Origin: Winogradskyella sp. MH6
GTDB lineage: Bacteria; Bacteroidota; Bacteroidia; Flavobacteriales; Flavobacteriaceae
Reading direction: 5' to 3'
Length of the DNA: 64,000 nucleotides
Assembly (NCBI RefSeq): GCF_022810765.1
Contig: NZ_CP094494.1
Span: forward strand, 3,224,001 to 3,288,000
Shown: in pieces, positions 1 through 23,557 of the stretch
Layout: every line of letters starts with the position of its first letter
Numbering within the stretch: the first letter of the stretch is position 1
Notes under the pieces: generated by a model
What the model was told of the DNA's origin: nothing
Databases searched by the model: none
What the model saw: only the letters and a program-made list of their open reading frames with translations
Position numbers and translations under genes: made by a program

Positions 1-822
1 TGCTGCTGCAAACGGATCTGCATTAGGATCCATCATTAGCTTTACTTCATTAGTAACGGCTTCTAAGTTGTTGAACTTTCCTTTTGGTTCTACACTTCCG
101 AAATAAGTATTTGGAAACGCCAAAAGGATATGCAAGTGTTTAGAAAAATAGAGGTAATTTAAAAAGATTAATATACCCACAATATGTAACCACCAAGCTG
201 AACGTTCTATAATATGTAACGTATCAGTATTATCTCCAAACCATGGTGCTATAAACTGCGAAATAACATTACCATGCCCTAAATTTTGAAACGTTGTGTC
301 TGTGGCATTCATTACTAGAAATAAACACATTAATACCACTTCAAAATACAAAATAATGTTACCATCATTCTTTGGCCAACCTTTCATTTCTGAACTAAGG
401 AAGCGTTTTAGTTTAATGACATTACGTCGTAACCAAAACACAACTACAGCAACGAGTACCAATACCGCTAAAATTTCGAAGGCACCAATTAGAAAACCGT
501 AAACAGACTCTGGTAAAACTTTAAGTCCTATACGATGTGTACCGAAAAGACCATCTATAATGATTTCTAAAACTTCAATATTAATAATGATAAAACCAAT
601 ATAAACTACAATATGCAGAAAGCCTGCTATTGGTCGTTTTACCATTTTGCTTTGCCCTAAAGCTATTCTGGCCATATTTCGCCAGCGTTCGCTCTTATGA
701 TCACTAGCATCGACTTCTCTACCAAGCTTAATGTTGCGAATAAGTGTCTTAATATTTTTTGCAAAATAACCGATACCCAAAACCAGGATAACTGCAAAAA
801 GTATATTTGGTATATATTCCAT
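1..822 (-). CDS. (Fe-S)-binding oxidoreductase, N-terminal membrane part (cut by window edge)
   Basis: An open frame starts with ATG at 820-822 (MEYIPNILFAVI...) and runs 274 codons off the left edge with no stop. The visible part is a membrane domain with several hydrophobic helices separated by basic loops, like the N-terminal region of the membrane-bound heterodisulfide-reductase-type Fe-S oxidoreductases common in Flavobacteriia. The cysteine-rich cluster-binding domains would lie outside the window, so the assignment rests on the membrane part and on context. It follows the MlaD gene by 5 bases, which makes cotranscription likely. The electron partner is unknown. Confidence 0.7.
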   Translation of the reverse strand, partial: MEYIPNILFAVILVLGIGYFAKNIKTLIRNIKLGREVDASDHKSERWRNMARIALGQSKMVKRPIAGFLHIVVYIGFIIINIEVLEIIIDGLFGTHRIGLKVLPESVYGFLIGAFEILAVLVLVAVVVFWLRRNVIKLKRFLSSEMKGWPKNDGNIILYFEVVLMCLFLVMNATDTTFQNLGHGNVISQFIAPWFGDNTDTLHIIERSAWWLHIVGILIFLNYLYFSKHLHILLAFPNTYFGSVEPKGKFNNLEAVTNEVKLMMDPNADPFAAA

Positions 823-827
823 AAAAA

Positions 828-1769: not shown

Positions 1770-1791
1770 TGGGCTTAGATTTGATTGAAAA

Positions 1792-1799
1792 CAAAATTA
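1792..1799 (-). promoter_or_regulatory. TAnnTTTG promoter element of the mlaD-like gene
   Basis: On the minus strand the sequence reads TAATTTTG, a perfect match to the Bacteroidota -7 element, 22 bases before the mlaD-like ATG and inside the 54-base gap behind the amidase gene. Confidence 0.5.
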
Positions 1800-1823
1800 G
1801 GAATAAAATTATAAATAATAATT

Positions 1824-2954
1824 CTAATTAGTGGCAGATTTTAAAGCCTCGTCTAGCTCTATTTGCTCACCTTTTTTATTATAGGCAACCACAAAGCTAG
1901 AGGTATACCCTTTAGACTTTGCTTCTTCTTGTAGTTGCTTTACCTTATTGTAATCTGAAGTGCTTCCGTAAAAATACTTATAGAGTTTGCCTACTTTGAG
2001 TTTACTAATATCTGATAACCCATTAAAATTATAAGATTTCGTTTCTAAGTCTTTAGAACTCGCAGCAATCTGTACTTTAAAGGTAATGCCTTCATACACC
2101 AATGGTAAATTCTCTAAAGTCTCTACCGTTTCGGTATCTAGTTTTTCGGTGCCTAAAATACTGCTGCCTACATTATCATCTAGCTCTTTCTTGTAATCTA
2201 TAATAGCATCTTTTATTGCATTGGCAACTTTTACCTGACCACTTTTTGAATTTAAAAAAGCCCCTTCAGTTTTGTTGGTAATAAAACCTGTCTCTATTAA
2301 AACACTTGGCATATATGTATTATGCATAACCCATAAACTAGCTTGTTTTAAACCTCTACTTTTTCGCTTGGCTTTACCTTTAAAATTATCTTCAATTTTT
2401 CGTGCCAATACAATACTCTGTTCAACGTAAACTTCTTGCTCAATAGTTAAAGCAATGGTAGATTCTGCCGAGCTTGGATCAAAGCCCTCATAATGCTGTT
2501 CATAGTTATCCTCTAAAAAGATTACTTCGTTTTCAGCTTTAGCTACTGCCATATTTCGTTCTGAATTCTTAGCTCCTAAAACAAAAGTTTCAGTTCCAGA
2601 AGCTTGAGAATGATGAGCATTACAATGTATAGACACAAAAAGATCAGCATCTGCCTTATTAGCTATTTTTGCTCTGTTTTTTAACGTTACAAATACATCT
2701 GTTTTTCGCGTATATATAACCTTGAAATCATTATTCTTCTCTAGTTCTGCTCCTAATAATAATGTTATTTTTAATGCTATATCTTTTTCTTTGTAACCAT
2801 TCTCTGTAGGTCTCCCAGGATCATGACCACCATGACCTGCATCTAAAACCACAACAAACTTATCGTCTTGTGCATGTAATGATGTAAAGCATGTTAAAGA
2901 AGTGATAAAAGTGAGAACTATGAATACTATTATATATTTTCGTTTCGTTTGCAT
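1824..2954 (-). CDS. N-acetylmuramoyl-L-alanine amidase (Amidase_3) with SPOR-like C-terminus
   Basis: A 376-residue exported enzyme. It has a signal peptide (about 1-28, ending SLHAQ) and a zinc amidase domain starting VVLDAGHGGHDPG, where the His is the first metal ligand; the GYKEKDIAL Glu and the SIHCNAHH His follow in the usual order. The C-terminal 80 residues (ITFKVQIAASSKDL...) resemble a SPOR-type peptidoglycan-binding domain that directs such enzymes to division sites. It cleaves the bond between the glycan strand and the stem peptide. It is transcribed divergently from lptD, which matches the gene order I expect in flavobacteria. Confidence 0.92.
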   Translation of the reverse strand: MQTKRKYIIVFIVLTFITSLTCFTSLHAQDDKFVVVLDAGHGGHDPGRPTENGYKEKDIALKITLLLGAELEKNNDFKVIYTRKTDVFVTLKNRAKIANKADADLFVSIHCNAHHSQASGTETFVLGAKNSERNMAVAKAENEVIFLEDNYEQHYEGFDPSSAESTIALTIEQEVYVEQSIVLARKIEDNFKGKAKRKSRGLKQASLWVMHNTYMPSVLIETGFITNKTEGAFLNSKSGQVKVANAIKDAIIDYKKELDDNVGSSILGTEKLDTETVETLENLPLVYEGITFKVQIAASSKDLETKSYNFNGLSDISKLKVGKLYKYFYGSTSDYNKVKQLQEEAKSKGYTSSFVVAYNKKGEQIELDEALKSATN

Positions 2955-3058
2955 ATTTAATCTAACGGTTTATAAACTCGAATTATTACGCAGTATAGTT
3001 AGTAATATCTATTTTTAAACTTTAGAAATTTAATAAGATAATCACAAAAAAATATCTG

Positions 3059-3066
3059 TACTTTTG
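3059..3066 (+). promoter_or_regulatory. TAnnTTTG promoter element overlapping the annotated lptD start
   Basis: TACTTTTG is an exact match to TAnnTTTG. Its last three bases are the TTG that opens the lptD reading frame. If it is used as the -7 element, transcription would begin a few bases after that TTG, and translation would have to start further downstream. Confidence 0.5.
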
Positions 3067-11832: not shown

Positions 11833-11935
11833 TTACAAAGGGTTTTGTATAGAAAATCAATTATGATTTTCGCATTGATAAACTAAGATAGCAAAATTGC
11901 AATGAATTATAGCACTTGTTGTAGGCGTGTTATTT
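11833..11935 (-). repeat. attC-like cassette-junction element A
   Basis: It lies between the AraC gene and the CPCC gene. Read on the minus strand it starts inside the CPCC stop codon (AAATAACACGCCTACAACAA), then GTGCTATAATTCATTGCAA and TTGCTATCTTAG, then a 7-bp hairpin (GAAAATC / GATTTTC, 11852-11871), ending CTATACAAAACCC. The same blocks in the same order occur in the element at 21725-21865. Confidence 0.6.
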
Positions 11936-12208
11936 AACTATTCGTTTTTTAGATTTGAACCGCTTTCTATGATTTTTTGGTATTACATTTTTAACCATCG
12001 TTGAATCACAAGCACCATATTTTTCAAAATTCAAACGTCCTTCTCTTAAGGTTATATGATTGGGACCAGAATGTTTATCTAATTCAGTTATGTCAATTGC
12101 GTCATCTTCCCAAAAACAGATTGGGCATATGTCATATACACCACGTTCACTCAATGTGTAATAGTCACAACAAGGGCATTGAAGTTCACTTTCCATATGT
12201 AGTTCCAT
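11930..12208 (-). CDS. CPCC family cysteine-rich (zinc-ribbon-like) protein
   Basis: A 92-residue protein with cysteines at 11, 13, 14, 28 and 31 in the pattern CPCC...CPICFWEDD, the hallmark of a family known only as CPCC cysteine-rich proteins. The four cysteines CxxC...CxxC probably bind zinc. The second half is basic (RKRFKSKKRIVK at the end). An alternative start is Met5. Its stop codon forms part of an attC-like element, and there is another such element upstream, so it looks like a single-gene cassette. Confidence 0.82.
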   Translation of the reverse strand: MELHMESELQCPCCDYYTLSERGVYDICPICFWEDDAIDITELDKHSGPNHITLREGRLNFEKYGACDSTMVKNVIPKNHRKRFKSKKRIVK

Positions 12209-12210
12209 AT

Positions 12211-12287
12211 ATTAGCTTTAACATAGAAAATGCTCAGAAATCCGAAACAAGCAATTACTTTTAGCAATTATTACATAATGCTATTTC
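12211..12287 (-). repeat. attC-like cassette-junction element B (diverged)
   Basis: It lies between the CPCC gene and the first DUF6090 gene. Shared blocks on the minus strand are AAATAGCATTATGTAATAAT at the DUF6090 stop codon, then TTGCTAAAAGTAATTGCTTG, close to the AGTAATTGCTTG of the element at 20178-20340, then CGGATTTCTGAG and ATTTTCTATGTTAAAGC. The outer repeats are weakly conserved. Confidence 0.45.
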
Positions 12288-13042
12288 TTTAGTTCTAATT
12301 CAATTTCTTTTATTTGAGATTTCATTTCTTTTATTGCATAATTCATGTTTCTTTTAGCAATGGGTATAAAACCACCTGCAATAACTAGAAATTCATTAAA
12401 GTCATCGCTATCATGAATTAGCTCATAATTAATACTGTAGTCTACTTTTATACCATCTGATTCATCAGAGACAACTTCTTTTTTAAATATTGTAGAAACC
12501 AAGTCATTTTTTTTATAGAGTTGCCTTCTAATAAATTCATTGACCCAAAACTCAACCCCTTTCATTTTAACCTCATACAAATTTGTAATACTGTTTCTGA
12601 GTTGTGAATTCGAAATTTTATCTAATCCTGTAGATTTGATAGACTCGTATGGACTATAATTTATTACTAATGCAATACCACCGCGTCTCACCTTGGTAAA
12701 ATGATAAACTAGTGAATCATAAGGGTAAGTGGGTTCATTTCTAACAGTTGTTAACTTAATAACGCTTTGTTTTAAATCTTCAATAGTCTTTAGCCCACCC
12801 TCCATGTTAGATATATCTTTTTCTAAAGCATCCTTAATCTCCCTGAGCATTGTCAACTCATAATCTCTATTTATTCTTTCTTGATTCTTATTATTAATTT
12901 GTAGTGCGATCAAAATCCCAATAACAACAAGCACAATTTCGCCAACAGCGTAAAGTAAATACTTGCTAAACTTACCTGCCCGTCCGGCAGGCGGGTTTTC
13001 AGAAAGTAAGTTTTGTCTAATCTTTCTAAAGAACTTAATCAT
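12281..13042 (-). CDS. DUF6090 family membrane-anchored protein, copy 1 (with in-frame palindrome insert)
   Basis: A 253-residue paralogue of four other genes nearby. It starts MIKFFRKIRQNLLSEN and has one hydrophobic segment (AVGEIVLVVIGILIALQIN) followed by a helical, charged domain ending ELKK. DUF6090 proteins have no known function; a basic N-terminus, one membrane helix and a large outer domain suggest an inner-membrane anchor. This copy carries seven extra residues (PPAGRAG) between SEN and KFSKY compared with copy 5 (TENKFSKYL). The corresponding 21 bases contain the CCTGCC...GGCAGG palindrome found in spacers elsewhere in the window. Confidence 0.85.
   Translation of the reverse strand: MIKFFRKIRQNLLSENPPAGRAGKFSKYLLYAVGEIVLVVIGILIALQINNKNQERINRDYELTMLREIKDALEKDISNMEGGLKTIEDLKQSVIKLTTVRNEPTYPYDSLVYHFTKVRRGGIALVINYSPYESIKSTGLDKISNSQLRNSITNLYEVKMKGVEFWVNEFIRRQLYKKNDLVSTIFKKEVVSDESDGIKVDYSINYELIHDSDDFNEFLVIAGGFIPIAKRNMNYAIKEMKSQIKEIELELKK
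12975..12995. repeat. CCTGCC palindromic repeat inserted inside a DUF6090 gene
   Basis: CCTGCC and GGCAGG form a 6-bp stem around a 5-base loop, followed by CGGG. Related palindromes lie between genes at 16169-16188 and 24149-24168. This copy is inside the coding region and keeps the reading frame. Confidence 0.7.
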
Positions 13043-13044
13043 AG

Positions 13045-13069
13045 GTTGGTTGTTGTGCGTTCGTTATTT
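13045..13069 (-). repeat. attC-like element, short form C
   Basis: On the minus strand AAATAACGAACGCACAACAA spans the stop codon of DUF6090 copy 2, and the ATG of copy 1 follows 21 bases after that stop. Only the first half of the element (the R''-like side) is present. Confidence 0.5.
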
Positions 13070-13822
13070 TTTAGTGAGTCTTATCTCTGACTCTATTGAT
13101 TCAATAATAAAAACCATTTCCGCTCTCAACATGGGACCTTCTGTAAATGTCTCGGCCATATATCCATAAACATATACCATCAAGTTTTCATATTTATCGG
13201 CTTTAATCATTTCTATAATGTCAGTTTTATATTTAGTTAGTTCTTCTTCTGTAAATTCTTCAAAATTCCATTCCTTTTTGAAATTTAACGTTCTGTTTTG
13301 TATAATGTATGGATACAAATTATTTGTTACGAATGTCATTACGTTGGTTTCTTCTTCTTTGTAATCAACTAGAAGGTCTTGCAATTTTGAAATTCTTTGT
13401 TTCAACGAATCATTGGAAATAAGTTCTATTTTTCCTGAATTTATAACTGAACGATAAATTCCTTGATAAGGATCGTATGTGTAATTATTATGGGAATTTC
13501 TCGTTAATGCTCTTAAGCTATCCAGATGCAAATCTTCAATTTCAGAAGTCATTAATACCTCTATACTTTTTTTTCTTGTGAGGTGTTTTTTGTATATATC
13601 ATCAAATACAACAAGGTTTTCACTGAATTCTTGATGAAGACTTTCCAATAATTTAAGTTCTTCATTTTTCAATAATCTATTGGTGTTCCAATTATTCAAT
13701 TGCAGAGCTATGAATATACCAATAACAACAAGGATTATTTCGCCAATGGCATATTTTAGATATTTGCCTGTTTTACCTTCTGAAAGTAAGTTTTGGCGGA
13801 TTTTACGAAAGAACTTTATCAT
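13064..13822 (-). CDS. DUF6090 family membrane-anchored protein, copy 2
   Basis: A 252-residue protein. The first 45 residues (MIKFFRKIRQNLLSEGKTG, then KYLKYAIGEIILVVIGIFIALQ without a break) are nearly the same as in the other copies, while the rest is much more divergent, with a long helical region (about 50-230). The start is set by this conserved N-terminus. About 40 bases upstream of the ATG are nearly identical to those upstream of copy 4 at 19486-19528, so these two share a duplicated 5' region. The stop codon TAA is part of the attC-like core AAATAACGAACG. Function unknown. Confidence 0.85.
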   Translation of the reverse strand: MIKFFRKIRQNLLSEGKTGKYLKYAIGEIILVVIGIFIALQLNNWNTNRLLKNEELKLLESLHQEFSENLVVFDDIYKKHLTRKKSIEVLMTSEIEDLHLDSLRALTRNSHNNYTYDPYQGIYRSVINSGKIELISNDSLKQRISKLQDLLVDYKEEETNVMTFVTNNLYPYIIQNRTLNFKKEWNFEEFTEEELTKYKTDIIEMIKADKYENLMVYVYGYMAETFTEGPMLRAEMVFIIESIESEIRLTKK

Positions 13823-13866
13823 TAGAGGTTAGTTTCTCTAAAGATATGATTTTTAATTAATTGATA
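13823..13866 (-). repeat. Duplicated upstream region of DUF6090 copies 2 and 4 (copy at 13.8 kb)
   Basis: AGAGGTTAGTTTCTCTAAAG followed by ATATGATTTTTAATTAATTGA is repeated with two or three differences at 19486-19528. AGAG and CTCT at the ATG-proximal end can form a small hairpin. Confidence 0.7.
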
Positions 13867-13977
13867 TACAGAAATCATGAAGTACAGCTTAAAAATAGTA
13901 ACCTATTCAATAATACATATAAACCAATACCATGACCTGTTTCGATATTAGCTCAGTGCATTACTAGCCACTATATA

Positions 13978-15312
13978 TTATTCATATCCTATTTTTACAG
14001 CTACTAAAATTGCAATAGCCGCAATGATTAGTATTATCAAAGTAGGTTTTACTATAAACTTAATCCAATTATTATACTTTATGCCTCCCAATGCTAATAC
14101 TGCCATTAAAGCACCATTTGTAGGTACAATAACATCCATCATAATGGTTCCATACTGATAAGCAAGCACACATACCTGTCTAGAAAGGCCTATCAAATCT
14201 GCAAGAGGTGTCAAAATTGGCATTGTTAAAATAGCTTGTCCAGAATAACTAGGTATCGGAAAATGAAGAATACAGTGCGAAACCATCATAAGAACAGCAG
14301 ATATGGAAGTCGGCACATTTTCTAATGGCGAAAAAAGCCCATAGACAATCGTATCTATAATTATCCCTTCACTTAAAATAATAGAAATACTGTTTGCAAG
14401 CCCTATGATGATACATGCAAAAATCATCTCTTTAAAACCATCAACATATAGCTCTGTAGTTTTATTAAATCCAAAATTTGATATAATGCCACATAATATA
14501 CCCAGTGCAAAAAAACAAGCCGACATTTCACTAAAACCCCAACCCAAAGAAATCAACCCATAGGTTACAACCCCAAATGTCAGCACAAGGAGAGATAATA
14601 TCACTTTGTTCCTTACCGTTAAGGTATTTACCTCTAGTTCTACTATAGATTTTTCAACGCGGTTCTTATTGGCATAACGCACAATATAAAGAGTCCAAAC
14701 CACACAAGCTATGAATAGAAAGATAAGTCTAAACTCAGTTCCCGATAACAGCTCAACCTCAGCTTCCTTTTGTGCAATCAAAACCCCAAAAGGATTAAAA
14801 GGACTAAAAGCAGCACCCACAACTGCCGACCCATAACTCGCGCTAAGTATTGTCATAGTATTATATCCAAGTGTACGGCCAAATAATAGCAATATAGGAG
14901 TCATTGCTATAATTTCTTCTTGCAATGCTATTGTAAATCCAGCGGTTAAGAACAGCAGGTTAATAATTATCAAAGCAAAAACCTCCTTGCCTTTAAGGAT
15001 GGTTATTAATTGATTTAATCCTTGATTTAAAGCACCTGTCTTTTCAATAATATAAAAACAGCCTCCCAACAGTAATATTAAAACAATAAGATCTGCTCGT
15101 CCAGCAATGCCCTTTGGTATGGCAAGTAAAGCATCAAAAGCCGAAAGAGAAGGTGCCTCTATATGTTCATAAGAATTGGGTACAACAATCGTACGGTTAT
15201 TTTCAGCATTAACTTCGCGTTGGTAATTACCTTGTGGAATTATAAATGTAAGAACCCATGCAATAAGTATTACAGATAAAATGATAACAAATGCATTAGG
15301 AAATCTTTTCAT
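13978..15312 (-). CDS. YfcC family membrane carrier (C4-dicarboxylate/amino-acid type)
   Basis: A 444-residue integral membrane protein of the YfcC/DcuC-like group. It begins MKRFPNAFVIILSVILIAWV with FIIPQGNY (first helix and the usual periplasmic start) and has about 11-12 hydrophobic segments. Conserved-looking family motifs include ALQEEIIAMTPILLLFGRTLGY with SYGSAVVGAAFSPFNPFG and, near the end, FPIPSYSGQAILTMPILTPL. Relatives are proposed to carry dicarboxylates, arginine/ornithine or short peptides; the substrate here is unknown. Its ATG overlaps the stop of the upstream gene (ATGA), so the two are translationally coupled. Confidence 0.88.
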   Translation of the reverse strand: MKRFPNAFVIILSVILIAWVLTFIIPQGNYQREVNAENNRTIVVPNSYEHIEAPSLSAFDALLAIPKGIAGRADLIVLILLLGGCFYIIEKTGALNQGLNQLITILKGKEVFALIIINLLFLTAGFTIALQEEIIAMTPILLLFGRTLGYNTMTILSASYGSAVVGAAFSPFNPFGVLIAQKEAEVELLSGTEFRLIFLFIACVVWTLYIVRYANKNRVEKSIVELEVNTLTVRNKVILSLLVLTFGVVTYGLISLGWGFSEMSACFFALGILCGIISNFGFNKTTELYVDGFKEMIFACIIIGLANSISIILSEGIIIDTIVYGLFSPLENVPTSISAVLMMVSHCILHFPIPSYSGQAILTMPILTPLADLIGLSRQVCVLAYQYGTIMMDVIVPTNGALMAVLALGGIKYNNWIKFIVKPTLIILIIAAIAILVAVKIGYE

Positions 15313-16106
15313 TTTTTAAGGTTTAAAAATCTTATATCATTCATATTGTACTCGTTTTCATATGTTCCGATTTTTTTAAAATAATAATATCTTAATCGTT
15401 CAGAACAAGATTTGTAATTGTCATAACCCCTAACTGAATATTCTAGTATTTTAAATGGCTTCCATTCATTTTTGTTAAATTCAAAGCCGTTTCCAATATA
15501 TTCATTTTTCTTTGAGAATTTGTTAAACCCCTTATTTATAAGTAATCCGGCAATAACATCTTTTCCATCATCTGAAAAAAACAAGGTATCTATAATAGAC
15601 TCGTTATTTTCAAGTCGTATAGGTAAATCAATTGCCCAAGCTCTTTCAATAGTATCGTTATAGACCTTGTCTTTAAAAGACCTCAAAGCTAATTCTGAAG
15701 GTCTTTGAACGATTTCTAATGTCACCAAACTATCAACCAACTTTTCAAGTTTCAATTTATCACGTTCATATTTTTCAGAATTAACCTTTACTGTATAGAG
15801 AAATTCATCAGGTGTTGTTGTATCGGTTATTTTTAAGAAATATTCTTTTGCAAAATACCGCATGGATATAATCGCAGTAGGACAACTCAAAATTAGAAGC
15901 AACCAAACACTTATTTTTTTTATGTTTTGTTTGAATGATATTAAAATAAATAAGACCGTTGCAAGAAACAGAACTATTGAGGTAATCATTAAGGTACCAA
16001 TTATATGCCCTAAGGCATAGTAACCGTTGCCGCTTAACAAATGAAAAACTGAAATTAGAATTCCAATTATTAAAATTCCATATAATATCTTAATTCCGTG
16101 TTTCAT
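15309..16106 (-). CDS. Membrane protein of unknown function, coupled to YfcC
   Basis: A 265-residue protein with three or four hydrophobic helices in its first 100 residues (ILYGILIIGILISVFHLL, LIGTLMITSIVLFLATVLFI, ISVWLLLILSCPTAIISM) and a soluble C-terminal domain of about 160 residues with many Lys and Glu. I do not recognise a family. The last four bases (ATGA) overlap the start of the YfcC carrier, so the two proteins are probably made together. The ATG lies just after a dispersed repeat in the 230-base spacer upstream. Confidence 0.75.
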   Translation of the reverse strand: MKHGIKILYGILIIGILISVFHLLSGNGYYALGHIIGTLMITSIVLFLATVLFILISFKQNIKKISVWLLLILSCPTAIISMRYFAKEYFLKITDTTTPDEFLYTVKVNSEKYERDKLKLEKLVDSLVTLEIVQRPSELALRSFKDKVYNDTIERAWAIDLPIRLENNESIIDTLFFSDDGKDVIAGLLINKGFNKFSKKNEYIGNGFEFNKNEWKPFKILEYSVRGYDNYKSCSERLRYYYFKKIGTYENEYNMNDIRFLNLKK

Positions 16107-16121
16107 ATTTCAGCACATAAT

Positions 16122-16225
16122 AAGATACAGTTCTGTTTTAATAAACCATATCCATTAATACAGAAGCACCTGCCTATCAGTAGGCAGGAGTTTAGCTCAA
16201 TTAAGCTAAGTTCGGTCTTTTAAAC
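16122..16225. repeat. Dispersed intergenic repeat, copy 2, with palindrome insert
   Basis: AAGATACAGTTCTGTTTTAA, followed by ACCATATCCATTAATACAGAA and, after a gap, AAGTTCGGTCTTTTAAAC, matches 37115-37198 block by block. A CCTGCCTA...TAGGCAGG palindrome sits between the two halves and is absent from the 37-kb copy. Confidence 0.65.
16169..16188. repeat. CCTGCC palindromic repeat (intergenic)
   Basis: CCTGCCTATCAGTAGGCAGG is a perfect 8-bp stem with a TCAG loop. It is one of three related palindromes in the window. Confidence 0.8.
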
Positions 16226-16236
16226 AAAAAAAGCAA

Positions 16237-16252
16237 TACGTAGTACTACGTA
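16237..16252. repeat. Perfect 16-bp palindrome TACGTAGTACTACGTA
   Basis: The sequence equals its own reverse complement with no loop. It lies 85 bases before the zinc-ribbon gene, in the same spacer as the dispersed repeat. It could be a dimeric protein-binding site or part of a mobile repeat. Confidence 0.6.
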
Positions 16253-16325
16253 GTTTTAGTTCGTATCTATTTGCTTAGCTTTATTATTTTCTAGCAGGAA
16301 AAAACAACCGCTTAATGAGTTTACT

Positions 16326-16333
16326 TATATTTG
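16326..16333 (+). promoter_or_regulatory. TAnnTTTG promoter element directly before the zinc-ribbon gene
   Basis: TATATTTG matches TAnnTTTG exactly and ends 3 bases before the ATG at 16337. Transcription would start at or just after the start codon, so a leaderless mRNA is possible. Confidence 0.5.
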
Positions 16334-16336
16334 GCT

Positions 16337-16564
16337 ATGTCTTTAATCAGTTGTAAAGAGTGCCATAACTTAATAAGCGATCAAGCACCAAAATGCCCAC
16401 ATTGTGGTGTCGTTTTAAAATCAGATAATACAGGGTGTATTTTAGCCTCTGGTTGCACAGGAACATTAGTGGTCATCATTATTCTTTTATTAATTTTTAT
16501 TTATGGTGTTTTCGCTTTCTTTTTTGATTTAATAAAAGAAATATGGAATGCCATGTATGGCTAA
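16337..16564 (+). CDS. Small zinc-ribbon membrane protein
   Basis: A 75-residue protein (MSLISCKECHNLI...). It has a zinc-ribbon with CxxC at residues 6-9 and CPHCG at about 20-24, then one long hydrophobic segment (about 40-68, TLVVIIILLLIFIYGVFAFFF) and a short tail. A TTG at 16331 would add two residues, but it overlaps a promoter match, so I take ATG at 16337. It is the only plus-strand gene in the 6.5-24 kb stretch and breaks the minus-strand run. Small zinc-ribbon membrane proteins are common in bacteria and mostly unstudied. Confidence 0.75.
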   Translation: MSLISCKECHNLISDQAPKCPHCGVVLKSDNTGCILASGCTGTLVVIIILLLIFIYGVFAFFFDLIKEIWNAMYG

Positions 16565-16634
16565 ACCTAACACATCTGTTATGCATTTCACCTATAAGAA
16601 ACTAACGATAATTTAGACAAAAAGCCATAATCAT

Positions 16635-17747
16635 TTAAATTACCTCAGATAAACTTTTATCATTCTGCAAAATAGACTCACTTCTATTGTACAAAATCAA
16701 TGCTGCATTATTAATCTCTTCCACAGATAGTTGTTGCCACTGATTGTAGTTAGACACATACTCTGACTTAAAGATAATTTGAGATAAATTATTGATTACA
16801 CTGTAATTTGCATACGCATGTGCGTAACTTCTATTCTCAGAATTAGCTCCGTTTAAAAATTGTGCAACCCTATCATAAATTGTAGCTTCAGAACAAAACA
16901 TTAACTCAATGAGTTTAGCTCTGTATTCCAAATCGGCTGAACTTAAATTAGGATAGTCATTCAAATCCGTAAAATGAAGACTTTCGTGTTTCAGATAAGA
17001 AATTTTAAAGCGCTCAGACGCTAAGTCATATTCATTCATGTTGCAATACAATGTTGCAGATTCCTTTTCAGCCCAACCACCAACCTGTGAAGACCCAAAT
17101 GTAGCGTAATCATCATATCCGTTTAAAACATAATTTTCAATAAACTTTACTGTTGTAGTAATAGTGTCCTTAGGTAAGTACACCTCATAAGTTTCACTCA
17201 ATGCTCTATCCCATAGTATTAAGTCCTGAAGTCCGTCTCTATACATAAACTTTGCACTAAAACCTTCCTTCTCAATTATTCGTTTTAACTCAACATCGTT
17301 TTTAATTGTTTGTTGTAAGCTATCCTTTGAAAGCTTTGTTAAGCTATGAGACAATAAATAGTCTGCAAGCTTATGATAGAGTAAAGAGTCCGTTCTAATG
17401 TCACTTGCGTCTTTCAAGAGTTCGGTTCTCCAATAGTCTCTATAAATATTTGAAATGTCGTCTATTACTTTGTTTCCTGAAATATTTTCGATTGCTTCTT
17501 CTTTTGTAATAAAGCGTTCATACATTTTAGTCTTCCACTTTTGATAAGCAATATTGATTAATGGATTTGAAAGACTTTCAGTTTCTTCCAGTTCGTCAAG
17601 AACATATTTGATTTCTCCATTTCCGGCTTTAGACTTTAGTAGCAACAGAGTCTCTTTATCCTTTTCAAAATTTCTGCTTCCTAAAAAGAATAAGCACACC
17701 AAAACTCCAATAATAATTAAAAGTATAGTTCTTGTTCTTTTTTTCAT
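16635..17747 (-). CDS. Protein of unknown function with N-terminal membrane anchor
   Basis: A 370-residue protein that starts MKKRTRTILLIIIGVLVCLF, a basic stretch and one membrane helix, and continues as a mainly alpha-helical domain with several Tyr- and Leu-rich helices (for example SLTKLSKDSLQQTIKNDVEL and YRAKLIELMFCSEATIYDRV). I recognise no family. It may be held in the membrane with a periplasmic helical domain, like the DUF6090 proteins next to it. The 146-base spacer on its upstream side is an attC-like element shared with DUF6090 copy 3. Confidence 0.7.
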   Translation of the reverse strand: MKKRTRTILLIIIGVLVCLFFLGSRNFEKDKETLLLLKSKAGNGEIKYVLDELEETESLSNPLINIAYQKWKTKMYERFITKEEAIENISGNKVIDDISNIYRDYWRTELLKDASDIRTDSLLYHKLADYLLSHSLTKLSKDSLQQTIKNDVELKRIIEKEGFSAKFMYRDGLQDLILWDRALSETYEVYLPKDTITTTVKFIENYVLNGYDDYATFGSSQVGGWAEKESATLYCNMNEYDLASERFKISYLKHESLHFTDLNDYPNLSSADLEYRAKLIELMFCSEATIYDRVAQFLNGANSENRSYAHAYANYSVINNLSQIIFKSEYVSNYNQWQQLSVEEINNAALILYNRSESILQNDKSLSEVI

Positions 17748-17760
17748 TTGGGTGTTAATT

Positions 17761-17900
17761 ATGGCTAACGGTTCAAGGTCTTTTGCGTTGGTTGGAAACT
17801 AAGATAGTAAAAAGAGCCTTAAAAAGTTCAACAAGAGTAGTTTCCGAGAGGAAAAACCTGAAGCTATGAACTATAGCCTTTGTTGTACGTTCGTTATTTT
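17761..17900 (-). repeat. attC-like cassette-junction element F
   Basis: On the minus strand AAATAACGAACGTACAACAA spans the stop codon of DUF6090 copy 3, followed by AGGCTATAGTTCATAGCTTC, then CTATCTTAGTTTCC, and ends GAACCGTTAGCCAT before the next gene. GTTAGCC at the end resembles the integron R' core GTTRRRY (one mismatch). The long inverted repeat seen at 21.7 kb is weak here. Confidence 0.5.
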
Positions 17901-18670
17901 TTTAAATCCAATTTTAATTGTTCAATCATTATGTTGGTTTTATTAAGACGCATATCGTTAAAAAATATCGTTTTTAAATTTAACTCGTAATAGGTATTTA
18001 ATAAAGTAATGAATTTGATTTGCACACTATTCCAATCAACATTATTCCATACTTGATTATTTAGATTTTGGTTAACAATATTCATTCCTTTAGAATGCAT
18101 TGCAGGAATGTTGTTTATGTATTCAAAATATACTTCATTTTTGCTTGTGATTATTTCTTGAATCATAAATGAATATTTTCTAGTATATCCATAAAAACTC
18201 ACGATTTCCTCTTGTAGTTCATTATCAAGTAAAGTTATTTGACCAGAACTTTGAAGCGATTGAAAAGTATTGTCACTTATAAGTGGATATTCAGTAGTGG
18301 CTAACATTATCCAAGGTTCTCTTTTAAAAAAAGTCAAGCTTTTTCTAATGACACTGTTTAAAGTGTCTTTGTCTGAACTAGAACGATTAAGTATTGTTCT
18401 TAAGCTGTCAATAGTCTTATTTTCTTGTTTTGCGTGAGATAAATGAAATTCGAAATGACTAACATCCAATAATAAATCGTTAATCAGTTCGGTTTTATAT
18501 ACTGAAACTAATTCTTGATTTTTTCGATTTTCATTCCAATTATTAATCTGCAGTGCAATCAAAATTCCAATAACCACAAGTACAATCTCACCAATAGCAT
18601 ATTTAAGATACTTACCTGTTTTTCCTTCCGTAAGTAAGTTTTGTCTAATTTTTCTAAAGAATTTTATCAT
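17894..18670 (-). CDS. DUF6090 family membrane-anchored protein, copy 3
   Basis: A 258-residue paralogue with the shared N-terminus MIKFFRKIRQNLLTEGKTG, the membrane helix (IGEIVLVVIGILIALQINNW) and then a helical outer domain that differs from its neighbours (for example VSHFEFHLSHAKQENKTIDS). It ends QLKLDLKK, close to the ELELKK end of copy 1. The stop TAA begins the attC-like core. The upstream spacer to copy 4 is only 56 bases and contains a short form of the same core. No specific function is known. Confidence 0.85.
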   Translation of the reverse strand: MIKFFRKIRQNLLTEGKTGKYLKYAIGEIVLVVIGILIALQINNWNENRKNQELVSVYKTELINDLLLDVSHFEFHLSHAKQENKTIDSLRTILNRSSSDKDTLNSVIRKSLTFFKREPWIMLATTEYPLISDNTFQSLQSSGQITLLDNELQEEIVSFYGYTRKYSFMIQEIITSKNEVYFEYINNIPAMHSKGMNIVNQNLNNQVWNNVDWNSVQIKFITLLNTYYELNLKTIFFNDMRLNKTNIMIEQLKLDLKK

Positions 18671-18691
18671 TGGTATTGGTTGGTCATAATA

Positions 18692-18724
18692 AGCACAATA
18701 GTTTGTTGTACGTTCGTTATTTTT
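18692..18724 (-). repeat. attC-like element, short form G
   Basis: On the minus strand it reads AAATAACGAACGTACAACAA, then ACTATTGTGCTT: the left core plus a reduced right half (ATTGTGC), between DUF6090 copies 4 and 3. Only about 33 bases are present, so the internal hairpin is lost. Confidence 0.5.
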
Positions 18725-18726
18725 AA

Positions 18727-19485
18727 CTATTCAATCTCTTTTTCAATCATTTTATTCAATTCAATGGCCTGTTTATTAATAGATTCAAAGCTCTCACCAG
18801 TTCGGATCTGAGATTGAATAGTAAACGGAAGTAATTCTATAAACTCAGGTTTATTTATCATTCGTTCATACACCTCTTTGGCTTCTGATATAGAGTACTG
18901 TTCCGTTTGTGTAAAACTCCCCATATTTATTTGTTGACGTGAAGAGAGTATTCCTCGGCGCTCTTTAAAATAATTCAATTGATTATCCTGACGAATAAAA
19001 TTATATTGGCCACGCTGTGATGTCCAGGAATAATAATCCTGAATCTTACTTCTTAGCTTTTCATTTCTAATAAGGGAAAGCTTTCCGCTAGATTTGATTT
19101 CTTCAAAAGTGTTATCCGAAATTACAGGATCATTGGTATAACCTGCATATTCAACACTTTGTATAAAGTAAGTGGCAGAATCTTCAGCTAAATTTGGTTC
19201 ATCAATAGACCCTAACAAAAACTCGGCACGTTCCATCCGATTTTTATTTGCGCGAATAGCGTTTGAGATATTTTCAACATCGGTTTTTATCTCGGCCTGT
19301 AAGCGTACCAAGAAATTTTTTTCCTGATTGCGGTTTTTACGACTCTCGTTCCAGTTGTTTATCTGCAACGCAATCAAAATCCCTATAACCACAAGGATAA
19401 TTTCACCTACTGCATATTTTAAATACTTTCCGGTTTTCCCTTCCGTAAGTAAGTTTTGTCTAATTTTTCTAAAGAACTTTATCAT
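18727..19485 (-). CDS. DUF6090 family membrane-anchored protein, copy 4
   Basis: A 252-residue paralogue with the shared N-terminus (MIKFFRKIRQNLLTEGKTG), one membrane helix (about 28-47) and a charged helical domain. The segment SDNTFEEIKSSGKLSLI parallels SDNTFQSLQSSGQITLL of copy 3. This NTFxxLxSSGxIxLI stretch (about residue 125) seems to be the second conserved site of the family. It shares its upstream region with copy 2. It stops at TAG six bases before the attC-like core, unlike copies 2 and 3, whose TAA lies in the core. Confidence 0.85.
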   Translation of the reverse strand: MIKFFRKIRQNLLTEGKTGKYLKYAVGEIILVVIGILIALQINNWNESRKNRNQEKNFLVRLQAEIKTDVENISNAIRANKNRMERAEFLLGSIDEPNLAEDSATYFIQSVEYAGYTNDPVISDNTFEEIKSSGKLSLIRNEKLRSKIQDYYSWTSQRGQYNFIRQDNQLNYFKERRGILSSRQQINMGSFTQTEQYSISEAKEVYERMINKPEFIELLPFTIQSQIRTGESFESINKQAIELNKMIEKEIE

Positions 19486-19528
19486 CAGAGGTTAGTTTCT
19501 CTAAAGATATGATTTTAAATTAATTGAG
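19486..19528 (-). repeat. Duplicated upstream region of DUF6090 copies 2 and 4 (copy at 19.5 kb)
   Basis: This is almost the same as 13823-13866 (AGAGGTTAGTTTCTCTAAAG, ATATGATTTTAAATTAATTGA), directly in front of the start codon. Beyond it the two spacers differ. Confidence 0.7.
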
Positions 19529-19545
19529 ATTACTAAATAATGTAT

Positions 19546-19608
19546 CACAACGGTTTGTGTGTAGTACGTATTCCGTGGGTATGCAATATAAACCGTATTG
19601 TATTGCTG
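19546..19608 (-). repeat. attC-like element, small form H
   Basis: The 7-bp ends ACGGTTT (19550-19556) and AAACCGT (19590-19596) pair perfectly. The flanks CACAACGG on one side and ATTGTATTGC on the other resemble the outer repeats of the element at 21.7 kb. It lies between the 177-residue orphan and DUF6090 copy 4. Confidence 0.5.
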
Positions 19609-19611
19609 TTT

Positions 19612-20145
19612 TTATTTTTCTACCAGAAATGGTTGATTCTTTAATTGCCTTTCATAATCCGCTTTCGTTTTGAATGGCCAATATTCAAAATCACCTTCTT
19701 TTTTCATTAATTCAAATTGTTGCTCTCTAGACATTTTTATATTTCTATAATACTGTCCAAAGGTTATTATGCTTTTCAATAAGTCATTAAAAGAAAATCG
19801 AATAATTGGATTAGTCATATCTACATAATTCCAATCGTATTCCTGATCTGAATGAAGGAATAAAATAAGTCTCGCAATATCTTTTATCTGTCCTTCTGTC
19901 AATTCATGTTTTCCTTTCAGCTTATGATTATAAGTGTCATTGTAGAGGCACCAAGAAAATTCAAGAATAGGTCTGATAATTTTATCATCGCATTTACTTT
20001 CTTTTGAGCGATAATATTGTTCTGGAAGCCAACCATAAGTTACATCATCCATTATTCGCTCTTCAAAATCATCGTTGCTTATCTGACCTGTCGAGAGTTG
20101 TCTCAGGTGTAGCGCAAGTTTCTTTCTTCTTTCTAGGTCAATCAC
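19612..20145 (-). CDS. Protein of unknown function (177 residues)
   Basis: A soluble protein starting with GTG (MIDLERRKKLALHLRQLSTG), with a Trp/Tyr-rich middle (PILEFSWCLYNDTYNHKLKG, SDQEYDWNYVDMTNPIIRF) and a basic end. I do not recognise a family. No in-frame ATG lies near the start; GTG at 20143-20145 fits best, and the frame stays open upstream to a CTG. It is flanked on both sides by attC-like elements, so it looks like a single-gene cassette. No signal peptide or membrane segment is visible. Confidence 0.65.
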   Translation of the reverse strand: MIDLERRKKLALHLRQLSTGQISNDDFEERIMDDVTYGWLPEQYYRSKESKCDDKIIRPILEFSWCLYNDTYNHKLKGKHELTEGQIKDIARLILFLHSDQEYDWNYVDMTNPIIRFSFNDLLKSIITFGQYYRNIKMSREQQFELMKKEGDFEYWPFKTKADYERQLKNQPFLVEK

Positions 20146-20177
20146 ATTTTTCAGTTTTCTAATGCACCTAAGGGCTC

Positions 20178-20340
20178 GGCTATGAGTAATTGTGTGGTTT
20201 AAGCAACTAATTTAGCAAATACAAACCGGATAGAAAATCCGCAAGACACCAGCAAACAGTGCGAATTGTGCGCTAGCAAATTTTCAGAAGTAGGCAAGAA
20301 CAAGCAATTACTTATAGCCATTGTTGTGTGTGGTATTTCT
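20178..20340 (-). repeat. attC-like cassette-junction element I
   Basis: The ends GGCTATGAGTAATTG (20178-20192) and CAATTACTTATAGCC (20305-20319) are inverted repeats with one mismatch. Outside them, on the minus strand, ACCACACACAACAATGG leads from the stop of the lipoprotein gene. An internal CGGAT...ATCCG hairpin corresponds in place to the GGAAATCC hairpin of the 21.7-kb element. Confidence 0.6.
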
Positions 20341-20344
20341 TATA

Positions 20345-20875
20345 TTAATTATCTATATCATACTTTTTATAAAAATAAGTCGCTCTGCCTTTTTCAATCT
20401 TATTATCTTTTAAATAAGACATAAATACAGGCTCGCTGACTTTGAGTGGTGTGTTTTTTAGATTATCTTTATCTTCAGAATTTAAAGAGAGTTCAAATAC
20501 TTTCAGAGTATTTTCTTTTAATTCAATCGCATATACATCTCCAAACTTTTTTCCTTCATCCCATCCCGATAAACATGCATATTTCTGTCCATCGATATAG
20601 TGCATTGTTAAGTCGCATTTAATTGTTTCTGTAGTTTTTTTCTCTAGATTTCGAAAAGTCATTTTAACATATGCCCAATAGTCATCCTTTTTTCTAACTT
20701 CCATATAAGTTTTAACTTCATCCATTACAGTAATATCCCAACCTCCTTCTAAATCATCATCAATTTTTACTTTATTTGATTTTAAAACAACATTTGATAT
20801 TGGTGATGGACACCCATAGAGTAAGGTGACACATAAAACAATAGCAATTATTTTTAATTTATTAAATTTTTTCAT
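20345..20875 (-). CDS. Lipoprotein of unknown function
   Basis: A 176-residue protein. It has a lipoprotein signal peptide with the lipobox LLYGC (Cys22): MKKFNKLKIIAIVLCVTLLY, then GCPSP. The mature part is beta-rich (GGWDITVMDEVKTYMEVRKK, YAIELKENTLKVFELSLN) and may form a small lipocalin-like or barrel domain. Asp is absent at position +2, so it is probably sorted to the outer membrane. No family is recognised. It is flanked by attC-like elements at 20178-20340 and 20897-21135. Confidence 0.72.
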   Translation of the reverse strand: MKKFNKLKIIAIVLCVTLLYGCPSPISNVVLKSNKVKIDDDLEGGWDITVMDEVKTYMEVRKKDDYWAYVKMTFRNLEKKTTETIKCDLTMHYIDGQKYACLSGWDEGKKFGDVYAIELKENTLKVFELSLNSEDKDNLKNTPLKVSEPVFMSYLKDNKIEKGRATYFYKKYDIDN

Positions 20876-20896
20876 GTTCAGTTAATTTAAATTACA

Positions 20897-21135
20897 GCAA
20901 ACGGTCTTGTGCAACCGTCAGTTACGGAATTAAAGTTAATGATTTTCGGTTTAGCACTGGCGTTAGCAATTCCGAGTGGATTCGAGAGCCTGTCCTGAGC
21001 ATTATCGAATTCAAAATATATTTTGAATGAAGATACCTTACAACGTAAGTCGAAGAGCAGTCGAATCCTCCAACCCGAGCATAGCGAACAGGTGTCAGCA
21101 AATTGCGGTTATACATTGTTGTGCAACGTTTTTTA
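20897..21135 (-). repeat. attC-like cassette-junction element J with nested insert
   Basis: The outer parts match the family: AACGTTGCACAACAATGTATAACCGCAATTTGC on the minus strand (read in two pieces) and TTGCACAAGACCGTTTGC at the far end. A separate inverted-repeat unit (20978-21068) with a perfect 20-bp palindrome at its centre sits inside and enlarges the spacer. Confidence 0.5.
20978..21068. repeat. Inverted-repeat unit with central 20-bp perfect palindrome
   Basis: It is bounded by GGATTCGA (20978-20985) and TCGAATCC (21061-21068). ATTCAAAATATATTTTGAAT at 21009-21028 is its own reverse complement. The part CCTGTCCTGAGCATTATCGA is the kind of short repeat that is scattered in many Bacteroidota genomes. 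No coding potential is evident. Confidence 0.6.
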
Positions 21136-21698
21136 TTCACTTTTTTCTAATTGTTTATGCGAACCATCGCAATTCGGTTTTCGTTTTGAGAGCCCACATA
21201 CACAGTCGTTCAATCCATAACCATCCATTATTCTTTTCATATTTTTCTCAATTCGAGATATCTTTGTCTTGGATTGCTTTGGTTTATCAAAATGTAAGAG
21301 ATAACCTCTTTGACGTCCAGCTGTCAAATTCTTAAACGCTTTTTCAAAGTCAGCATTTTCTGAAAAAATTTGTTCCAACTCTTCTGGTACATTAAATTCA
21401 GAAGTTTTTTTCTTTTCAACTTTCTTACCTAATTTTTCAATTCCGATTGCACGTTTTCAGTTTGTTGTACTAAAATCTTTTCAGGGTCTTTGAGTAATAC
21501 TCCTTTATTAAATAAAATCGCACAGTAATCTTTAAACTCGTGAATTAAAACTATATTTTTCCCATTGTCAGTATAGCAAGGATGCATCCATTTGAAGTCT
21601 TCAATTAATCCACAATCAAGTATAATTTCACGAAGTCTGGTCAATTCCGATTTCCATTTTTTAAGTCCGCTAAGGTATCTGTTTACGTCTTCGTTCAT
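21133..21698 (-). pseudogene. Broken YdeI/OmpD-associated family gene (DUF1801 - YdeI - CDGSH)
   Basis: Two frames together make up one gene. The first, from ATG at 21696-21698 (MNEDVNRYLSGLKKWKSE) to TAG at 21429, is a DUF1801 domain ending QQTENVQSELKN. The second, open from about 21450 (RAIGIEKLGKKVEKKKTSEF) to 21133, is the YdeI-type C-terminal domain with NLTAGRQRGYLLHF and KQSKTKISRIEKNM, ending in CVCGLSKRKPNCDGSH, an exact CDGSH-type iron-sulfur motif. The 566-base length is not a multiple of three. Compared with family members as I recall them, a stretch of roughly 25 residues at the joint also seems to be missing. It is probably inactive, though the C-terminal part could be translated alone from TTG at 21376. 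Confidence 0.75.
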
Positions 21699-21724
21699 TG
21701 GTTTTGCGGTTTCTCTCAAATGTT

Positions 21725-21865
21725 GCACAACGGTTTTGTGTATGGCTCGTTGCGGGAAATCCTCGCGGATTTCCCGCCGTAACCGAAAGATAGCAAATTG
21801 CAAGGAATTTTCGAAAGAGAATTCAGCCGCAATGAGCTATACACGGTGTTGTGCTTTCGTTATTT
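21725..21865 (-). repeat. attC-like cassette-junction element K (best-preserved copy)
   Basis: The outer 7-mers GCACAAC (21725-21731) and GTTGTGC (21848-21854) are perfect inverted repeats. Inner arms of 18 bases (21738-21755 and 21827-21844; GTGTATGGCTCGTTGCGG against its partner) match at 16 positions. A central hairpin CGGGAAATCC/GGATTTCCCG (21753-21776) has 10 perfect pairs. This R''-L''-hairpin-L'-R' layout and 130-base size match integron attC sites, and each outer 7-mer differs from the attC consensus (RYYYAAC, GTTRRRY) by one base. Confidence 0.7.
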
Positions 21866-22639
21866 CTAATTTTTTCGACATTTTTTCACTAATAAGTCAT
21901 AAGGTGAATTCATTAAATTACTTATTGTTGTTAAATGCTGTTTCTCTCTATCTGTCATTGAAATATTGAACAATAATTCCATTTGAAACTTTTCGTAATA
22001 TTCGTTGTCTTTGTCCTTTGTCCAATCAACTTGCTTTAAAGTATGAAGAATCTCTGGTCCAATGATTTGATTCACGTATTCCAATTCTTGTGTACCACCA
22101 AATTCGATTGAACTGTTGAACAATCCAAATATGTTTTTTAGATTTTCATCTCTATTTTGTTTCATTTGAGTCTGTACGTTTTCCAATTCACTATAATATT
22201 GAATTAGGCTATTTTTAATTTTGATGTCATTAAGCAACTTAATGTTTCCTGATGAGATTAAATCTTTGAATGTAACATCGCGAACCACAAAAACATCACC
22301 TCTGATAGCTATTAAAAATTTGTTCAAAAGATATTTCTTGCTCTTTGTTCCTGAATCTAATTCCAACAAAAGCTCTTTACTTGTTTCAATCCTTTTATCG
22401 GCTTTTTCTAAAGATTGGACAATTAGTTGCTTGTCCATTTCTAAATCGTCCAAGATTCTGTTATAATAATTAAGTTCCGCTTTTATGTTCTTTCTATTGT
22501 CATTCCAATTGTTAATAGACAAAGCAATCAAAATTCCAATAACCACAAGCACTATTTCCCCAATCGCATAAATCAGATATTTACTGAATTTATTTTCAGT
22601 CAGCATTTTTTGTCTAATTTTCCTAAAGAATTTTATCAT
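21866..22639 (-). CDS. DUF6090 family membrane-anchored protein, copy 5
   Basis: A 257-residue paralogue starting MIKFFRKIRQKMLTENKFS, with the membrane helix IGEIVLVVIGILIALSINNW and a helical outer domain containing DVTFKDLISSGNIKLLNDI, the second conserved site of the family. Unlike copies 2-4 it has NKFSKYL instead of GKTGKYLK, as in copy 1 without its insert. It is the first gene of the minus-strand run, 43 bases after a TAGGTTTG promoter match, and is followed directly by the best attC-like element. Confidence 0.86.
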   Translation of the reverse strand: MIKFFRKIRQKMLTENKFSKYLIYAIGEIVLVVIGILIALSINNWNDNRKNIKAELNYYNRILDDLEMDKQLIVQSLEKADKRIETSKELLLELDSGTKSKKYLLNKFLIAIRGDVFVVRDVTFKDLISSGNIKLLNDIKIKNSLIQYYSELENVQTQMKQNRDENLKNIFGLFNSSIEFGGTQELEYVNQIIGPEILHTLKQVDWTKDKDNEYYEKFQMELLFNISMTDREKQHLTTISNLMNSPYDLLVKKCRKN

Positions 22640-22662
22640 TGGTTAGCGTTTTCTGATAATGA

Positions 22663-22692
22663 AGCACAACGTTAGTATATACAAACCTAGCC
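22663..22692 (-). repeat. attC-like half element at the head of the run
   Basis: On the minus strand, GGTTTGTATATACTAACGTTGTGCTTC ends the upstream region of DUF6090 copy 5. TAACGTTGTGC equals the 3' end of the family (ACCGTTGTGC). The 5' half is not recognisable. Confidence 0.4.
22682..22689 (-). promoter_or_regulatory. TAnnTTTG promoter at the head of the cassette-like run
   Basis: The minus strand reads TAGGTTTG, 43 bases before the ATG of DUF6090 copy 5. A TTG lies about 20 bases further upstream (GGGTTGTATATG), at suitable -33 spacing. It is the only TAnnTTTG match I found in front of any minus-strand gene between 11.8 and 22.7 kb. Confidence 0.5.
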
Positions 22693-22816: not shown

Positions 22817-23557
22817 CTATCTACCAAACAACACAGCACCATAACCATCACCACCAGGCAATAAAAAAAGCCCATCATTCACACGTTGGTAAAACGCCAC
22901 GCGCGCCACAGCAACCAATGCACCATCACCCTCAGGCAAGCCATCTACCGCAATAGCAAAAGCAGTAGCATCAAAATCCCTATCAACAAAAACACCATCA
23001 GCCATAACACTAGTATAAGTACAAGTATCAAAATCAAAACGCAGCACACCAACCACAACCTCCATCGTATCCGCCCCATTAGGAAAGCGCGCACCAGCAA
23101 TGCTAAAATCGCTAACCTCAAAACGCAAAGCATCCCAATCAAAACCATACGTACCATCAAACAAACGAGGCCGCTCTGGCGTTACCTTAAAGTCACTCAA
23201 CATTCTCGGGCCATAAGCCGTAGCATAGCCAACACCAACCCTACGCTCCCCACGCTTAGAAGTAGCATCCAAATCCTTAATACCTAAAAACAAGCGCATC
23301 AATCGCGCATGCAACGTCCCATCCTTATAACCCACCAAAAAAGGCCGTAAAGCCAGCTTAAAATGCTTATTTACCTTAGAGCATAGCGCAAACTCAGTGT
23401 TACTCTCACGTACACGCTCCATACTTGGGCTCGTCTTTATAGCCTTAGCCGTAAAGCCACCACCAGCACGTCGCGCCGTAGGCACACCCTTTCTGTAGTA
23501 AAAATTAACACCACCCAAAGTCCCTTCAAAAAACACAATCCCTTTCTGTCTTGCCAT
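22817..23557 (-). CDS. Orphan protein, MARQKGI-GTLGGVNFY type, atypical base composition
   Basis: A 246-residue protein. Its N-terminus (MARQKGIVFFEGTLGGVNFY, then RKGVPTARRAGGG) and the following REs/Arg-rich helix (about 45-75) resemble a group of conserved Bacteroidota proteins of unknown function that begin with a similar GTIGG.xFY motif. The second half is beta-rich, with many Asp, Gly and Val. Two sampled stretches have 53-58% G+C against roughly a third in neighbouring genes, and the coding strand is strongly G+T rich. No signal peptide or membrane segment is seen. Three 11-base tandem repeats lie 57 bases upstream. It was probably acquired or is under unusual base selection. Confidence 0.72.
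   Translation of the reverse strand: MARQKGIVFFEGTLGGVNFYYRKGVPTARRAGGGFTAKAIKTSPSMERVRESNTEFALCSKVNKHFKLALRPFLVGYKDGTLHARLMRLFLGIKDLDATSKRGERRVGVGYATAYGPRMLSDFKVTPERPRLFDGTYGFDWDALRFEVSDFSIAGARFPNGADTMEVVVGVLRFDFDTCTYTSVMADGVFVDRDFDATAFAIAVDGLPEGDGALVAVARVAFYQRVNDGLFLLPGGDGYGAVLFGR

Follow-up and report, generated by a model that had tools for sequence, protein, structure and literature searches.

The window analysed here, a stretch of 64,000 nucleotides from the genome of Winogradskyella sp. MH6 (contig NZ_CP094494.1, positions 3,224,001 to 3,288,000), contains between 11.8 and 22.7 kb a series of genes accompanied by related elements that resemble the attC sites of integron cassettes and are placed a few bases 3′ of stop codons. 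The plausible long genes of this region are encoded on the minus strand, with the single exception of a 77-aa open reading frame (ORF) on the plus strand (16331-16564), and the initial annotation of minus-strand genes with elements near stop codons is upheld apart from this ORF. The region is read here, with a probability of roughly 0.87, as an integrase-less and mostly decayed cassette array of an integron-type system of Bacteroidia. Judged from sequence, the units of this system are arranged head to tail in one direction, each as a rule comprising one small gene and an attC-like site.

Searches of the window with a covariance model recover four elements on the minus strand at E ≤ 0.02. The best of these (21719-21859) scores 123.7 bits with R1, a model built from 12 elements of the genome of the window (G000; other G numbers denote genomes of relatives and L numbers loci), and is also one of the R1 training sequences; its R″ box, GCACAAC, lies at 21854-21848 and the G of its GTT at 21731. 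The plus (bottom) strand of this element is predicted to form a single hairpin that brings its inner and outer boxes together (−31.3 kcal/mol, z −5.1), and the other strand an equally strong but different fold (−29.9, z −5.5). The second element (20890-21138; 42.7 bits over 20890-21031), delimited by alignment and with R″ at 21127-21118, is longer between the arms than the other window elements; the third (20160-20334; 33.7 bits) has a degenerate right box (CTTAGG), and the fourth (17757-17893; 22 bits, E 0.015) folds no better than shuffled sequences (z −0.5). Two weaker minus-strand matches are found at 11850-11908 (E 0.46), within an element at the downstream end of the array (11833-11935; left block with five mismatches, fold z −2.3), and at 19539-19608 (E 0.8), a weak or shortened element. 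Left-half remnants on the same strand, recognised by the left motif, lie 3′ of a DUF6090-type gene (18695-18722, one mismatch) and between two DUF6090 genes (13045-13069, no mismatches). Over the whole window the left block occurs at five places when up to five mismatches are allowed, and the right block, at up to four, in one element and at one unrelated place (61748). No element was seen in 13.98-16.1 kb, an Rfam search of the window gave no match, and a tRNA search found none. The site layout proposed in the initial annotation is complete in the best copy and partial elsewhere, and applying it to all ten elements counted there is an overstatement.

In integrons the boundary of a cassette falls just behind the G of GTT, and the opening bases of the cassette and its terminal R″ box were once parts of one site in the circular form. 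Owing to this shared origin, a unit is expected to open with bases complementary to the R″ of its own far end and not to that of the adjoining site. In the window this signature is retained by the units at 21.1-22.7 kb, and the other readable units lack it. The unit at 21732-22670 (minus strand) runs from the G of GTT at 22670 through a DUF6090 gene (21866-22639; PF19578) to its element, and its start, GTTGTGCTTC, agrees with the reverse complement of R″, GTTGTGCTTTC (21848-21858), at six of the seven positions after GTT. The next unit starts at 21731 with GTTGTGCAAC, the reverse complement of which is found at 21127-21118 (7/7); its gene part (21129-21731, minus strand) consists of split YdeI/OmdA-like frames, with PF13376 and PF09360 matched in one piece. 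The split YdeI/OmdA-like gene (21133-21803) has a CDGSH motif at its C-terminal end and is broken into two frames, and the boxes of its cassette are still paired. The unit starting at 20902, carrying a 176-aa gene without a Pfam match (20345-20875), has lost its own pairing (3/7).

The remaining genes, likewise on the minus strand, are a 177-aa ORF (19612-20145) and a 370-aa gene (16635-17747), both without Pfam matches, three DUF6090 genes (17894-18670, 13064-13822 and 12281-13042; PF19578), a DUF6090-type gene at 18727-19485 assigned from repeat and sequence likeness, and a gene for a CPCC cysteine-rich protein (11930-12208; PF14206). Five DUF6090-type paralogues (MIKFFRKIRQ...) are thus present between 12281 and 22639, four of them ending in an element or a left-half remnant, and part of the repetition in the window is due to these paralogues; stretches resembling them recur in relatives.

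The own-end relationship is pronounced in the wider set of 140 elements, in which AAC was readable in 131 and GTT in 122, pairs lacking either being unscored. Over the seven bases after GTT, 94 cassettes match their own end at a mean of 6.52/7, with 64 perfect, compared with 2.65/7 between the two boxes within one site (83 sites) and a mean of 2.67/7 in 10,000 shuffles, the highest of which reached 3.22. The own end scores higher than the junction in 81 of 83 comparisons, equal in two and lower in none. The same preference is found in all 113 scored cassettes of genome G769 (6.66 against 2.79) and in 45 cassettes from 16 further loci, mostly of other genera (Rufibacter, Algibacter, Seonamhaeicola and others), where the means are 6.47 and 2.82 and the own end is higher in 43 of 44 and equal in one; one cassette of L071 belongs to both sets. 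An intact unit therefore starts at GTT, with the following bases complementary to those before the AAC of its own-end site, as expected if units move as circles with crossover at GTT.

A full array is present elsewhere in the same genome (G000:C1:436144-453734), where a tyrosine recombinase gene is followed, 330 bases further on, by the first of 16 sites accompanied by small unrelated genes, all on the plus strand except for three IS110-like copies on the opposite strand. Its cargo includes an Mrr/NERD nuclease, DinB, an AAA kinase, SMI1/KNR4 and a PIN match under the cut-off, and five of the ten genes tested have no Pfam match. The initial claim of an integrase-less array of Bacteroidota is right for the window; the genome additionally holds this complete array and the recombinase that goes with it. 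At E < 0.001, R1 finds at least 35 matches in G000 (16 in this main array, 3 in the window and 16 alone or in small groups), from a search that scored 150 of 1572 first-look candidates and may miss weak copies. Of the 23 elements located away from the main array, 19 lie no more than 23 bases from a stop codon on the same strand. As a separate observation, 18 of the 19 elements outside the main array at E < 0.001, the window included, are on the minus strand, and the main array is on the plus strand.

Traces of cassette movement are found in G769, whose array of 115 sites, all on the minus strand, spans 116,679 bases from C1 position 3335688 across the origin to about 102697 (L239, L228-L232 and L236), with a divergent recombinase at about 103757-104812. 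Cassettes in non-adjacent places of this genome form 23 pairs of 98-100% identity and four pairs of 85%, and G011 contains a perfect tandem of a 640-base cassette. G022 and G018 carry counterparts of the main-array DinB cassette (93% and 90%, respectively). The homology in G022 starts with the G of GTT; the G018 counterpart sits after a homologue of a cassette that comes later than DinB in G000. These comparisons show whole units duplicated, reordered and placed singly elsewhere.

Of particular relevance is the recombinase itself. The complete genome G000 has no match to TIGR02249 above the cut-off, and the best match in the integron-integrase search is a tyrosine recombinase directly followed by an element of the same type. 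The array recombinase scores 202.4 bits against the TIGR02249 cut-off of 265 and passes the curated cut-off of NF040815 (XerA-type) with 245.5 against 220 bits; it shares 82% identity with the W. ursingii recombinase. About 42 residues are missing at the position of the extra (I2) domain of IntI: the conserved Lys region and HxLRH are separated by 64-69 residues in 58 relatives (two of 60 not measurable) and by 72-73 in four XerC/D-like proteins (two of six not measurable), compared with 107 in 17 IntI (four of 21 not measurable), L196 and L213 having been left out of this comparison. Residues ~181-248 of 2a3v align with only 25 residues of the recombinase, and most family members carry an N-terminal extension of about 100 residues. 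Elements occur in the same fetched stretch at 22 of 26 recombinase loci, the nearest within 2.7 kb in 21; all or most lie downstream on the same strand in 19 of the 22, and the recombinase is divergent in three. Full arrays are thus headed by an XerA-like tyrosine recombinase without the IntI additional domain, in most cases encoded upstream in the orientation of the array and in some divergently. The searches proposed in the initial annotation, of genome and relatives with a covariance model and of element-bearing genomes for a tyrosine recombinase, yielded further elements, full arrays and a recombinase beside them.

By the accepted definition this putative cassette recombinase is not an IntI, because it misses TIGR02249, lacks the ~42 residues and falls outside the IntI clade. 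Passages of PMC9668308 treat the extra domain as part of both the definition and the detection of IntI, and IntegronFinder requires it. A conventional IntI integron that has lost its integrase or has it at another place, with the XerA-like gene a bystander, is the best surviving alternative, albeit an improbable one. Integrase-less arrays are described as common among known integrons in the relevant part of PMC9024848, and the window array itself lacks an integrase; however, IntI above the cut-off is absent from complete G000 and present in one of 395 genomes in a sample of the class (in a phylum-wide sample, 105 of 395, of which that same genome alone is labelled as of this class), the recombinase adjoins elements in many genera, and a search (A4) of the complete genome G769, with its 115 sites, gave only the array recombinase and two much lower-scoring matches.

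Slightly less probable still is movement of the cassettes by the host XerC/XerD, and not by the adjacent recombinase. Movement by XerC/XerD has reportedly been proposed for Xer-site (pdif) modules, GTT/AAC cores occur in Xer sites as they do here, and G000 encodes XerC/D-like recombinases; however, a nearby site was found at none of the six XerC/D-like loci examined, compared with 22 of 26 loci of the dedicated recombinase. Hairpin repeats of REP or MITE type, settled at gene ends and moved by a RAYT or other transposase, the alternative named in the initial annotation, would fit the singly scattered elements and degraded window copies and are nevertheless very improbable, since they explain neither the match of units to their own far end over the nearer box nor the near-identical duplicated gene-plus-site units, G000 has no match to Y1 transposases (PF01797; control positive in 5 of 14 genomes), and both the position of the 19 elements relative to same-strand stops and the different gene content beyond a conserved flank in G769 also weigh against them.

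Several observations run counter to the assignment of the region to an integron-type cassette system. The majority of window units are decayed, and decayed units are under-counted in the pairing test because sites without a readable AAC or GTT (9 and 18 of 140) were left out. R1 saw no element at four of the 26 recombinase loci, although R2, a model built from R1 hits, places two elements at one of these (G030/L057), and in G001a the nearest element is 8.6 kb from the recombinase. As R1 was trained on elements of G000 and R2 on R1 hits, those matches are found by construction, and two of 14 intended control loci gave matches at E < 0.01, both of which hold fragments of the recombinase family. 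The bottom-strand folding suggested in the initial annotation succeeds for the best copy and not for 17757-17893, and among the lowest-energy folds of seven bottom strands, three join the inner arms and one joins the outer boxes. Finally, the R′ consensus of integrons, GTTRRRY, fits only 16 of 263 sites, and no typical attI was identified; in G000 the array opens with a short hairpin element, and G769 has a candidate between the recombinase and the first cassette.

Structural features of the sites are otherwise consistent with folded recombination substrates made up of outer boxes, covarying inner arms and a fixed asymmetry. In the inner arms 93.8% of cells are paired compared with 73.7% after shuffling, and two-sided changes are found in 13 of 14 pairs, in an alignment that was fitted to the model, for which reason the shuffled and slid controls matter. 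Unpaired spacers of three bases on the left and six on the right are found in 194 of 231 sites with clear arms, the right being the longer in 228, and this fixed asymmetry could be a source of direction. GTT followed by a purine occurs at R′ in 240 of 263 sites. The longest ORF of a cassette is forward in 116 of 126; its ATG follows GTT by a median of 28 bases, and its stop codon precedes the element by a median of five. A short form of the element was observed in a GC-richer stretch of Rufibacter (L155, 7296-12390), where nine of ten sites measure 77-80 bases.

Relatives of the recombinase at E ≤ 1e-48 are found in 195 of 395 genomes across the class, arrays having been checked in part of them. 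Applied to 78 further loci, R1 yielded 56 matches, and R2 found elements in 25 of 49 loci, partly by construction. In controls, R1 matched none of 29 loci at E ≤ 1, and R2 gave one match (E 0.15) in 42 loci. With a generic site finder, 14 of 80 named loci, 1 of 14 IntI loci and none of 10 shuffles yielded cassette pairs, and a widened version gave them in 6 of 46 loci compared with 4 of 46 shuffled; only L187, L190 and L193 are trusted among these, because they show several consecutive pairs.

Of the 30 IntI loci fetched, 21 were used (three with internal stops). A quick tree, with six more rows left out beyond L196 and L213, places IntI in one clade with the array recombinases outside. In a careful tree of 61 chosen rows, some with one element only, 30 of 34 element-bearing recombinases form one clade (99/93) and four of the divergent type another (100/100), and the IntI clade (100/100) groups with the I2-less L185, L186 and L190 (99/91), which come from one Firmicutes and two Patescibacteria-type metagenome-assembled genomes (MAGs). 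L190, in the Firmicutes MAG, adjoins five sites at 237-4722 with own-end pairing of 6/7 in all four cassettes; near L186, in a Peregrinibacteria MAG, two sites occur, one clear and the other degraded (4203-4375 and ~2390-2550), and no array was found at L185. Independent origins were considered when a first approximately unbiased (AU) test rejected a clade of I2-less array recombinases and IntI with these three among the rows outside (p 0.008); the idea was dropped because L190 adjoins an array and, once the three are included, the test does not reject a common origin for every cassette recombinase (p 0.33). Placing all I2-less recombinases apart from IntI is weakly disfavoured (p 0.084), and a single clade of all 34 I2-less array rows is not rejected (p 0.40), the p values being loose, as groups were chosen after seeing a tree. 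The evidence leans towards the I2-less form as the first in the order of events. That a widespread form of integron-type cassette capture uses a recombinase that never had the I2 helix, and that IntI with its helix arose from within such recombinases, is a tentative proposal to which we give somewhat less than even odds.

The system resembles integrons, among them sedentary chromosomal integrons and CALIN arrays, in several respects: small-gene cassettes lie in arrays of one direction, the sites have outer as well as inner boxes, units are bounded at GTT and pair with their own end, one array exceeds 100 sites, and satellite arrays lack an integrase. It differs in a recombinase that lacks the additional domain, falls under the TIGR02249 cut-off and carries an N-terminal part of ~100 residues, in an array usually downstream on the recombinase's own strand, and in an R′ that is rarely GTTRRRY. 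Unlike XerA-type recombinases (NF040815; PDB 5hxy, 4a8e), the protein heads cassette arrays and has the N-terminal extension. As a model drawn from sequence comparison, the adjacent recombinase would carry out cassette recombination on the folded bottom strand of the site, orientation perhaps being read from the spacer asymmetry and the N-terminal extension perhaps replacing the I2 helix, and the window array may have been seeded or shed by this system and no longer renewed. The system would work like an integron and lacks one of its defining features, the I2 domain.

In the portions of PMC7790495 (an eLife study) bearing on this point, the I2 helix is credited with the move to single-strand sites and intermediates of IntI are described as lacking. 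The 2022 IntegronFinder 2.0 survey, in its relevant section (PMC9024848), lists a complete integron in Salinibacter ruber, Bacteroidetes proper, and integrons also in Chlorobi and Ignavibacteriae, and a passage of a review (PMC8618304) counts Bacteroidota among the integron phyla. No account of an I2-less system appeared in the titles and abstract openings covered by a literature search with preprints and most subscription papers outside its range, nor did that search return a paper for 'Winogradskyella' with 'integron'. Clean traces of cassette recombination without the I2 domain imply either another recombination route or a surviving earlier stage. They make the origin of integrons directly testable and give access to a large reservoir of cassette genes from Bacteroidia, marine ones included.

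Five near-identical IS110-like elements (PF01548 and PF02371) are present in G000, three in L010 (644-1860, 2508-3724 and 10605-11821) and the others in L076 and L082. All five copies in the fetched stretches occupy the same spot of an element, between the L′ arm and ACCGTT, in one orientation. IS1111 elements target attC sites, and the IS110-like copies here are similar to the attC-targeting elements of the IS1111/IS110 group, with the difference that their host sites belong to the I2-less system; they constitute an attC-targeting insertion sequence on a cassette system without I2.

The comparison of gene content suggested in the initial annotation is informative on one side of the window array. 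The left-flank genes of the window have no match in G769, so synteny is one-sided, and four genes of the right flank (SerC-, LuxC-, ferredoxin-like, 22817-23557; named by look) are conserved there. Beyond this conserved flank, G769 differs: a Cas9-like gene and others lie there in place of the window array, and one DUF6090-like gene and a fragment lie about 10 kb beyond it. The Cas9-like protein (1134 aa) is accompanied by Cas1- and Cas2-like neighbours, all named by look, at G769:C1:549406-556539.

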